From the NCBI RefSeq assembly GCF_023566055.1, contig NZ_JALIQP010000002.1, forward strand, positions 806,001-870,000: a stretch of DNA of 64,000 nucleotides, in the 5' to 3' direction. Shown here piece by piece: positions 3,466-17,667 of the stretch. Source of the stretch: Halosolutus amylolyticus. GTDB lineage: Archaea; Halobacteriota; Halobacteria; Halobacteriales; Natrialbaceae. The translations under genes were made by a program, and so were the position numbers. The first letter of the stretch is position 1, and the number at the start of each line of letters is the position of its first letter. A model generated the notes under the pieces. The model ran no database searches, had not been told where the DNA came from, and saw nothing but the letters and a program-made list of their open reading frames with translations.

Positions 3466-3630
3466 CGGCCGCCGGAACCGGACGTGGCGATCGATCCCGA
3501 ACGACGAGTCGTCGATTCGGGAACACACGTCATCGACTACGACAGCAAAATGGGCCGGACACCGCCGTCTGAACTTGCCACTGTTTACTAGAACCGTACT
3601 CGACCTTCCAGCGTTCAGCCGGGCCGTGGC

Positions 3631-3637
3631 TTTATTA
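3631..3637 (+). promoter_or_regulatory. TATA box for the carboxylase operon
   Basis: TTTATTA centred 27 bp before the ATG at 3661, with a purine/GC-rich BRE-like stretch just upstream. This spacing places transcription start at or next to the ATG at 3661, the standard layout of a haloarchaeal leaderless transcript. It therefore favours translation starting at 3661 rather than only at the carboxylase ATG at 3750. Confidence 0.6.
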
Positions 3638-3660
3638 CCATTGTTTTGCTATACCGTGGC

Positions 3661-3753
3661 ATGAACCAGTGGTCGCGAACGCACGGAGGAACGGCGAACA
3701 CGGCGGACGATACCGGGACGCCGATCGGTCACGAGGCGGGTGAGCGGCGATGA
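3661..3753 (+). CDS. 30-aa leaderless mini-ORF coupled to carboxylase
   Basis: Thirty codons starting MNQWSRTHGG and rich in Gly, Thr and Asp, ending TGA at 3751-3753. The stop overlaps the carboxylase ATG at 3750 by ATGA. It begins where a leaderless transcript from the TTTATTA box should start. I do not recognise the peptide. It could be a leader that feeds ribosomes to the carboxylase by termination-reinitiation, or a small carboxylase accessory peptide. Haloarchaeal propionyl-CoA carboxylase is known to use a small third subunit, PccX, but that is longer (about 84 aa), and I see no similarity. Confidence 0.45.
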   Translation: MNQWSRTHGGTANTADDTGTPIGHEAGERR

Positions 3754-5336
3754 CCGATCGACACGACGCGTCCGTCGAGGACCTGATCGATCGCGTCGAG
3801 CGCGAGAAGCGCGCGGTCGACGACGAGGGCCGCGAGGCCGCCGTCGCCGCCCAGCACGAGCGCGGGAAACTCACGGCCCGCGAGCGGATCGACTACCTCT
3901 GTGACTCCTTCGACGAGATCGGCAAACTCGCTGCGCCGGCACCGACGACGCCGGAGACGGCCGACTGGGAGCGCAAGGACGCCCCGGCAGACGGCATCGT
4001 CACCGGGATCGGCGAGATCGACGGTCGGCCGGCGGCGGTCGCGGCGACCGACTTTACCGTCAAGGGTGGCTCGATCGGCCACACCGGCGGGACCAAGCTC
4101 AAGCGCGTGATGGAACTCGCCCTCGAACAGGGGTATCCCGTCGTCCTGCTCCACGACGGCGGCGGCCACCGGATCCAGGAGGGGTTAGACGCCCGGCCGT
4201 TCGCACAGGGCGACGCCGGCCTGACGACGCTCCAGACGAAGCTCTCGGGCTGGGTCCCGACCGTATCGGCGATGATGGGGCCGGGCTTCGCCGCCGCGAC
4301 GAACTGGGCCGCGATGTCGGACTTCGTGGTGATGGTCGAGGGGACGAGTATGATGGGCGTCGCCGGCCCCTCGCTCGTCGAGGCCGCGCTGGGAACCGAC
4401 CTCAGCAAGCAAGAACTCGGCGGCGCGCGGTTCCAGACCGCCGAGACGGGGATGGCCTCGCTCGCCGTCGACGACGACGAGACCTGTCTCGACGCGATCC
4501 GGACCTACCTCTCGTACCTGCCGCGGAACGCACGGGCCGATCCCCCGATCGACGACGCTCCGAGGCCGCCCACCGACGACGCCAGCGAGCGACTCGTCGA
4601 CGTGATGCCCGCCGACCCGAAGAAGGGGTACGACGTCGACGCGATCGTCGAGGGGATCGTCGATCGAGAGTCGTTCTTCGAACTCAAACCACGGTTCGCG
4701 CAGAACGTCGTCACCGGTTTCGCGCGCCTCGACGGCCGATCGATCGGCGTGATCGCGAACAATCCCCGGATCAAGGCGGGAACGATCGACGCCGGCGCGT
4801 CGGACAAGGCCTCCCACTTCGTCAGCATCTGTGACGCCTTCGGCCTCCCGATCGTCCTGTTGACCGACGTGCCGGGAGTCATGCCGGGGCCGGACTCCGA
4901 GCGCGAGGGGATCGCCCGCCATTCCGCGAAACTCCCGTTCGAACTCAACCGCGCGACGGTACCGACGCTGAACGTCGTCCTCCGACGGGGGTACGGCTAC
5001 GGCTACGTCGCGATGGGCGGCGGCCGATCGACCGACAACGAACTCACCGTCGTCTGGCCGACGGCCGAGATCGCCGCCATGGGGATCGAGGGAGCCGTCG
5101 ACATCGCCTACCGCAAGGTCTACGAGGCGGCCGACGATCCCGAGGCGAAACGCCAGGAACTCATCGACGAGTTCGTCGATCGGACCGGCCCCGTCCGCGC
5201 CGTCGAAGAGATCGGTATCGACGCCGTGATCGACCCCCGGGACACCCGCGATCGGCTCCTGGGCGCGCTCGATCGGGACGGGCCCGACCGCGAGGAAACG
5301 TGGCCGCCGAAAAAGCACCCGATCAACCCGATGTAG
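3750..5336 (+). CDS. acyl-CoA carboxylase beta subunit (carboxyltransferase)
   Basis: 528-aa carboxyltransferase with both crotonase-like halves. The N-terminal CoA-binding half contains GGSIGHTGGTK and GPGFAAATNWAAMSDFVV (oxyanion region). The C-terminal biotin half contains IKAGTIDAGASDKASHFV, PGVMPGPDSEREGIARHSAK and RRGYGYGYVAMGGG. These enzymes move the carboxyl group from carboxybiotin to acetyl-, propionyl- or another acyl-CoA. Length fits the PccB/AccD5 type. No biotin carboxylase or biotin carrier gene is adjacent, so it must pair with subunits encoded elsewhere, and the substrate is undetermined. Its start overlaps the upstream mini-ORF by ATGA. Confidence 0.88.
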   Translation: MTDRHDASVEDLIDRVEREKRAVDDEGREAAVAAQHERGKLTARERIDYLCDSFDEIGKLAAPAPTTPETADWERKDAPADGIVTGIGEIDGRPAAVAATDFTVKGGSIGHTGGTKLKRVMELALEQGYPVVLLHDGGGHRIQEGLDARPFAQGDAGLTTLQTKLSGWVPTVSAMMGPGFAAATNWAAMSDFVVMVEGTSMMGVAGPSLVEAALGTDLSKQELGGARFQTAETGMASLAVDDDETCLDAIRTYLSYLPRNARADPPIDDAPRPPTDDASERLVDVMPADPKKGYDVDAIVEGIVDRESFFELKPRFAQNVVTGFARLDGRSIGVIANNPRIKAGTIDAGASDKASHFVSICDAFGLPIVLLTDVPGVMPGPDSEREGIARHSAKLPFELNRATVPTLNVVLRRGYGYGYVAMGGGRSTDNELTVVWPTAEIAAMGIEGAVDIAYRKVYEAADDPEAKRQELIDEFVDRTGPVRAVEEIGIDAVIDPRDTRDRLLGALDRDGPDREETWPPKKHPINPM

Positions 5337-14593: not shown

Positions 14594-14646
14594 ATGGATC
14601 GAGCACCGAATCGACCGCCGGAACATGCCAGTTCTGTAACCATATT

Positions 14647-14650
<4 letters not shown>
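14594..14650 (+). CDS. 18-aa mini-ORF overlapping uvrA start
   Basis: Eighteen codons ([18 protein letters not shown]) ending TGA at 14648-14650, overlapping the uvrA ATG at 14647 by ATGA. Its ATG lies at the expected leaderless position below the TATA-like GTTAAGT. The peptide has no recognisable family. The layout is the same as the 30-codon ORF before the acyl-CoA carboxylase: probable translational coupling, or possibly DNA-damage or translation-dependent control of uvrA. That function is inference. Confidence 0.4.

Positions 14651-17666
<3,016 letters not shown>

Positions 17667-17667
<1 letters not shown>

Follow-up and report, generated by a model that had tools for sequence, protein, structure and literature searches.

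Leaderless small ORFs coupled by an RTGA junction were reported in mycobacteria by Shell et al. 2015 (PMC4633059), with this junction given there as enriched (23/220 vs 32/1000). According to a review (PMC12548453), the sole function of such a short upstream ORF could be the delivery of a ribosome to the coupled gene; the natural examples it gives are mycobacterial, unlike the archaeal case presented here. For the haloarchaeon Haloferax volcanii, Huber et al. 2019 (PMC6728339) describe nine of nine overlapping gene pairs as strictly coupled, with a Shine-Dalgarno (SD) motif that aids reinitiation to a variable degree and is reported to have no function in de novo initiation within 5' UTRs. A text search of that paper found no uORF or short upstream frame. 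Babski et al. 2016 (PMC4983044) report that 72% of the protein-coding transcripts of H. volcanii are leaderless. The same work reports uORFs in 16/97 leaders of 150-250 nt. We recognised no report of an archaeal leaderless NTGA mini-ORF in a literature judged mostly by titles and the starts of abstracts. Given that the mycobacterial RTGA ORFs and termination-reinitiation in Haloferax are already known, the locus described here is an archaeal variant of a known arrangement. What appears to be new, as judged from the sequences compared, is the alternation between direct and adapter-mediated leaderless starts, together with the ligase relics.

The locus lies in a 64,000-nt stretch of haloarchaeal DNA (the window, whose positions are used throughout; GC content 65-70% in 4-kb steps) and consists of a mini-ORF that runs into a carboxylase gene. 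As in the mycobacterial class (PMC4633059), in which a leaderless start on an ORF of 5-50 aa is followed by a TGA overlapping the next RTG, the mini-ORF is directly 5' of the gene, its 30 codons are within the 5-50 range, and its stop overlaps the next start (ATGA here, GTGA in the sister species G016). In both cases the architecture can outlast the peptide sequence, and ribosome delivery is what was proposed for mycobacteria. Unlike there, where mapped starts and ribosome profiles are reported, the present case is from an archaeon and its starts are predicted; moreover, the enzyme gene is seemingly directly leaderless in other species, and Natrinema carries ligase relics. The H. volcanii pairs (PMC6728339) share with this locus the 4-nt ATGA, one of the two overlap lengths (1 or 4 nt) that mark such termination-reinitiation pairs, the SD element in the upstream frame, scored here as GGTGA, and the haloarchaeal translation machinery, but their upstream partners are protein genes. 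The uORFs of H. volcanii (PMC4983044) are likewise short (15-31 aa) and are located between a mapped transcription start and the gene, yet the section describing them mentions neither ATGA overlap nor coupling, and their leaders of 150-250 nt contrast with the shorter ones of 29-122 nt found here.

Mini-ORF and carboxylase gene

The ATG at 3661-3663 opens a 30-codon frame in the window sequence, MNQWSRTHGGTANTADDTGTPIGHEAGERR. Its TGA at 3751-3753 overlaps the carboxylase ATG at 3750-3752, which confirms the stop/start overlap claimed in a preliminary description of this DNA. The features of the locus are presented in Table 1.

Table 1. Features of the mini-ORF locus and of a second mini-ORF in the window.
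Feature	Position	Strand	Basis
TATA-like TTTATTA of predicted promoter	3631..3637	+	sequence; model core -29..-26 relative to 3661
WW element at -11/-10 of predicted start	3650..3651	+	sequence and model positions
Predicted leaderless mini-ORF, 30 codons + TGA	3661..3753	+	sequence, promoter model, sister-species homologue
10-bp hairpin, 3722-3731 with 3751-3760, includes carboxylase start-codon bases	3722..3760	+	folding
Shine-Dalgarno-like GGTGA within mini-ORF, 6 nt 5' of carboxylase start	3739..3743	+	sequence
ATGA stop/start overlap, 4 nt	3750..3753	+	sequence
Biotin-dependent acyl-CoA carboxylase carboxyltransferase (PccB/MmdA-like), 528 aa	3750..5336	+	PF01039
Second such mini-ORF, 18 codons, ATGA overlap with uvrA	14594..14650	+	promoter score 6.7

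The product of the downstream gene matches the carboxyl transferase domain over its full length (PF01039, E 4.9e-128, residues 35-522). Its exact substrate was left unassigned because the match to TIGR01117, of 462 bits, is below that model's cut-off of 998.8; the best-scoring solved chain is 1vrg, the beta subunit of propionyl-CoA carboxylase. A misassigned carboxylase start was ruled out by the N-termini of the two nearest relatives, which match from codon 3750 (MTDRHDASVEDLI / VTDRHEASVEDLI / MTDRHDAAVEDLI), and the start at 3750 thus looks right. The carboxylase is an accessory paralogue: at E <=1e-150 it has matches in 21/391 genomes sampled across the class and in 18/146 genomes of another family, while 120/125 genomes of the window's own family hold some match at E <=1e-100, mostly a paralogue at 42-46%. 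The named relatives of the carboxylase are from Halorientalis and Natronomonas.

When the window leader was shuffled with its dinucleotides preserved, an ATG at -3..+4 of the predicted start combined with an NTGA stop was obtained in 1.9% of the shuffles. The single locus is therefore only mildly unusual, which agrees with an accidental mini-ORF, i.e., a carboxylase gene with an 89-nt 5' UTR, internal initiation aided by GGTGA, and a fortuitous ATG upstream. The weight of the observation comes from the recurrence of the arrangement in relatives, considered below.

Predicted transcription start

Gene calling yielded 1107 genes of at least 80 codons in 1.264 Mb of the window's genome (G000). Of these, 853 have 60 nt or more of free upstream sequence, and the A+T content upstream of them shows maxima at -30..-25 and at -11/-10, which is the mark of leaderless promoters. 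A positional promoter model was fitted by EM to 799 of the gene starts called in this genome, a set that will have included the carboxylase start at 3750, but not the ATG at 3661. The trained model presents TATA at -29..-26, A at -34/-33, and WW at -11/-10.

With this model, the ATG at 3661 scores 7.8 bits, which is the maximum within 3540-3760, exceeds 99.9% of 20,000 random positions and corresponds to the 75th percentile among gene starts, vs 1.4 bits for the carboxylase ATG at 3750. The predicted first base of the transcript is thus that of the mini-ORF start codon. These values favour the earlier proposal that the TATA box points to initiation at the mini-ORF and not at the carboxylase: leaderless initiation there is predicted by the organism's own promoter model, and the prediction recurs in relatives.

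A palindrome-like AACAATGTT was noticed by eye near the carboxylase promoters of Natrinema (L080, L083 and L086) and of Natronomonas (L068-L071 and L084), where it adjoins or overlaps the TATA region. Its counterpart in the window is ACCATTGTT at 3637-3645. This palindrome may be a candidate operator. The motif AACAWTGTT, seen by eye near the promoters of several copies, has 2 sites in the 1.264 Mb of the window's genome, for 1.3 expected.

Carboxylase copies in relatives

Forty-four haloarchaeal carboxylase copies, of about 55% identity or more, were compared. All were scored with the promoter model trained on the window's genome only; for several copies the start codon was chosen manually, in G429 with the scores already in view. 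The preliminary description had suggested looking for conservation of the ORF and of ATGA in relatives, and a promoter-linked ATG mini-ORF ending as NTGA on the carboxylase start is present in nine of the 44 copies, with scores of 3.2-11.6 bits and lengths of 30, 31, 19, 10, 12, 13, 25, 26 and 41 codons. Seven of these score at least 4 bits (G000, G016, G022, G273a, G436, G249 and G273d; 4.4-11.6), whereas G273b (25 codons, 3.6 bits) and G475 (26 codons, 3.2 bits) are below the 4-bit line used elsewhere. Thirteen other copies have a promoter-positive carboxylase start of their own (4.2-8.9 bits, with a cut-off of at least 4), and a promoter-linked NTGA mini-ORF was found in none of these.

Besides these 13 direct and nine mini-ORF copies, the set holds G297, with a promoter-linked mini-ORF of 18 codons whose stop is at +11 instead of +1, eight copies with a full-length ligase upstream, six with a shrunken open ligase, one with a ligase that lacks its front (G055a), and six uncategorised copies: G273c (with a ligase 25 nt upstream), G404, G118 (with a GTG mini-ORF and an 8-nt overlap), G454, G054b and G055b. 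A promoter-linked short upstream ORF is present in eleven copies (ten with ATG, one with GTG), and in nine of them it ends as NTGA. The nine mini-ORF copies occupy five spots of the carboxylase tree, several deeper forks of which are weakly supported: the window clade with G016 and G022; G273a; the two Halorientalis copies; G273b/G475; and G273d. Shuffling the leaders of these copies produces the arrangement in 1-5% per copy. The SD 5-mer is present in 5/9 mini-ORF-coupled copies vs 1/13 copies that have a promoter-positive carboxylase start.

This recurrence argues against an accidental mini-ORF, as do the 9/11 copies whose promoter-linked short ORF ends as NTGA and the genome-level excess of such ends presented below. 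Internal initiation aided by GGTGA is further disfavoured by the report that SD motifs are inactive for de novo initiation in H. volcanii 5' UTRs (PMC6728339). Given both the shuffle result at the single locus and the recurrence, we regard an accident as unlikely.

The contig L093 (G273) carries, at about 3.4-7.0 kb, two convergent carboxylase copies with an AMP-ligase-like gene outside each. One ligase is co-directional with its carboxylase and ends 25 nt 5' of it. The other carboxylase has the promoter-linked mini-ORF of 41 codons, and its neighbouring ligase faces away.

Genome-level counts

In 1.26 Mb of G000, 44 out-of-frame upstream ATGs are promoter-positive (at least 4), and 18 of them have their stop at NTGA, where 6.1 are expected after matching for distance; among promoter-negative ones, the fraction is 60 of 463 (p 1.5e-5 for the comparison between the two). 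The NTGA share rises with the promoter score up to 6 bits, at which it reaches 15/27 for an expectation of 3.8, and is 12/22 at 7 bits. At 6 bits, 22 out-of-frame ATGs are in the NTGA frame and 5 in the other frame. Since the start codon is followed by an A in many genes, a stop at NTGA is common, and the 60/463 among promoter-negative ATGs hence agree with the accidental explanation, against which the excess among promoter-positive ones stands.

Replication with the same model in G016 yielded 3/7 vs 15/140 at 4 bits (p 0.04, or p 0.07 with an alternative way of counting) and 1/5 at 5 bits (p 0.45); at least two of the three NTGA cases of G016 are orthologues of G000 cases. In the Halorientalis genome G436 the counts were 3/11 vs 16/118 (p 0.21, or p 0.37 with the alternative counting). 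Among the flanking genes of 41 ortholog loci, taking one per gene cluster, no NTGA excess was found (0/5 vs 15/77). Given replicates that are weak (G016, G436) or null (flanking genes), we take the excess as clear in the window's genome only.

The SD 5-mer precedes the start in 7/19 mini-ORF-coupled genes vs 6/47 genes with a promoter-negative NTGA mini-ORF (p 0.04), which is a weak advantage. For reference, it is found in 34/73 called pairs with a 4- or 1-nt overlap, in 7/420 leaderless-type genes and at 5.8% of random positions.

Some of the mini-ORFs in the genome counts, which reach 53 codons, may encode genuine small proteins; two of the three NTGA cases in G436 are, by eye, cysteine-rich and zinc-ribbon-like. 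A promoter-linked ORF of 29 codons on contig C1 of G000 (strand coordinate about 591898) overlaps the next gene by TGATG. Its peptide appears membrane-like by eye, and it is perhaps a true small protein gene. The second mini-ORF of the window (Table 1) leads into the uvrA gene at 14647-17667, whose product was identified as UvrA. The G016 counterpart of this mini-ORF, likewise of 18 codons, is similar at the front but has diverged at the end.

Conservation of the peptide and of the architecture

Divergence was compared between the window and the sister species G016. The two are 88% identical in the promoter stretch (45/51 aligned bases at -140..-90 before the carboxylase), 76% in the mini-ORF, 46% further upstream and 90% in the carboxylase. 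The homologous mini-ORF of G016 has 31 codons, aligns with one gap of 3 bases, and differs by 7/6/9 changes at the three codon positions. Its non-synonymous divergence is 0.206, four times the 0.053 of the carboxylase. The dN/dS of 0.49 in the mini-ORF frame, vs 1.02 and 0.80 in the other two frames, is based on 22 changes only, and makes a weak constraint on the peptide possible.

Among 36 peptide pairs compared with shuffles, a relationship is clear for G000/G016 (z 11.5) and G273b/G475 (z 9.1), while the similarities of G000/G436 (z 3.9) and G022/G273a (z 3.1) are at most suggestive. The G000 and G436 peptides share an MN front and a G-E/D-R-R end, the latter coinciding with the GGTGA stretch. 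Profile scans of the mini-ORF peptide gave no Pfam or NCBIfam match. Taken together, the dN/dS value and the G000/G436 similarity leave constraint on the peptide, or common descent, possible.

Small carboxylase subunits occur in other organisms, and these two results would also suit a functional micropeptide, e.g., such a subunit, that merely shares an operon with the enzyme. The peptides vary from 10 to 41 residues, however, with clear likeness only within G000/G016 and G273b/G475; the end shared by G000 and G436 is also the GGTGA stretch; and the 13 copies whose carboxylase start is itself promoter-positive lack the peptide. These observations, along with the null profile scans, make a micropeptide decidedly unlikely. 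With the reservation that the G000/G436 peptides align above shuffles, the start, the open frame and the NTGA junction are kept more than the peptide, which suggests that the frame counts for more as a loading ramp than as a protein.

RNA folding

The preliminary description had also raised the possibility of an attenuator. In such a model, a stalled ribosome or an unread mini-ORF would alter the folding of the carboxylase start and thereby regulate the enzyme in response to a metabolite or amino acid. The 10-bp stem in Table 1 (inverted repeat CGATCGGTCA) fits this to some extent, as it holds the bases of the carboxylase start codon, has GGTGA in its loop and folds at a local z of -3.2 on mononucleotide shuffles in the window's genome. 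Translation through the mini-ORF would thus melt the stem. A counterpart of this hairpin is missing, however, from the other nine mini-ORF loci that were folded, with local z values all at -0.7 or higher, and the 140-nt folding in the window gives a z of -0.28 on dinucleotide shuffles. A search for terminator-like sites of the bacterial pattern came back empty, and none of the Rfam families attained its gathering score. By eye, the mini-ORFs of different lineages (10 to 41 codons) share no run of codons. The locus thus presents neither the regulatory codon run nor the terminator or conserved sequestering structure of a leader-peptide attenuator; the claim finds little support, and we consider such regulation highly improbable. 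The hairpin could still tighten the dependence of the carboxylase on the mini-ORF, a feature that would not be common to the relatives.

Ligases and ligase relics upstream

Eight carboxylase copies are behind an overlapping full-length ligase, six of them in Natrinema (genus g15), one in genus g21 and one in family f3. The overlap is an NTGA in six cases and 8 nt long in two; in Natrinema, it is the last codons of the AMP-ligase that overlap the carboxylase start. Six of the eight ligases were scanned, and all six are AMP-binding (PF00501). The ligase ATG is promoter-linked in seven of the eight (5.0-10.8 bits), with the scoring ATG of G059 belonging to a 558-codon ORF that is not the longest one, and is promoter-negative in G054a.

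Seven copies are preceded by a shrunken ligase. Six of these, all in g15 (G051, G070, G073, G062a, G052 and G066), are open from a ligase-like front to ATGA over 47-82 codons. In the group of G051, G070 and G073, the first dozen ligase residues are joined to the last thirty or so; the G066 relic corresponds to ligase residues of about 6-13, 128-182 and 543-558; and just part of the frame aligns to the ligase by BLAST in G062a and G052. Given that the two shrunken frames scanned, of the six, have no Pfam family match, the ligase nature of these frames is taken from the BLAST alignments. They are not six independent events, as the tree shows a history shared by G051, G070, G073 and probably G062a. 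The seventh, G055a, has lost the ligase front; its remaining frame is open to ATGA, without a promoter-linked start according to the promoter model, and its carboxylase is intact.

A promoter-linked ATG is present in just one of the six open relics, G066 (5.5 bits), where an ATG of another frame, 4 nt earlier, scores 6.6. The promoter peaks of the others are 5-25 nt before the ATG, except in G052, where the peak is 10 nt after it. These relics are observed directly, as are the anatomy of the window locus and its recurrence in relatives. The shrunken Natrinema ligases look like adapters in the making, and represent one way in which adapters may arise.

Judged by eye, the window mini-ORF lacks both the DDRPIE-like front and the ETNKMRKVELREQLLE-like end seen in the Natrinema ligases. 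A ligase origin is not claimed for it.

Proposed mechanism and implications

We consider it probable that the mini-ORF is a leaderless ribosome-loading adapter that works by termination-reinitiation. Transcription would start on the mini-ORF ATG, and a ribosome would bind the leaderless 5' end, in haloarchaea the principal route of initiation, read the 30 codons, the sequence of which would be of little importance, terminate at the TGA of ATGA, and reinitiate on the overlapping carboxylase ATG with the aid of the GGTGA 6 nt upstream. In Natrinema and two other genera, an overlapping AMP-ligase gene occupies this position. The transcription start, the translation of the mini-ORF and the dependence of the carboxylase on it are what we infer; ribosome loading at the 5' end and handover at ATGA are proposed because the published data on coupling and leaderless initiation can be combined with the anatomy of the locus. 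The dependence of carboxylase synthesis on translation of the mini-ORF, as put forward in the preliminary description, would by analogy match the overlapping pairs reported for H. volcanii, coupled in 9/9 cases (PMC6728339). Its suggestion that a leadered gene thereby gains the benefit of leaderless initiation is the one that fits best.

A broader reading, which we put forward tentatively and hold somewhat doubtful, is that haloarchaeal leaderless NTGA mini-ORFs are a general class of translational adapters, with some dozens per genome, whose formation is visible in Natrinema. The figure of dozens is extrapolated from 1.26 Mb of the window's genome, in which the 18 promoter-linked cases are roughly threefold the number expected after distance matching. 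If this is true, a gene with an adapter can retain its leader and be reached by SD-assisted reinitiation with its ribosomes still entering at the 5' end, and Natrinema presents the first gene of a coupled operon pared down to little more than a start, an open frame and a stop.

Given that in H. volcanii 72% of protein-coding transcripts are leaderless and that SD motifs are reported to be inactive there in de novo initiation, how haloarchaeal genes away from the 5' end are translated is a practical question. For some genes, the answer would be a mini-ORF that merely carries ribosomes to an NTGA junction, and the frame translated first may be absent from the annotation of some transcripts. The ligase relics offer a concrete path from an operon gene to an adapter.
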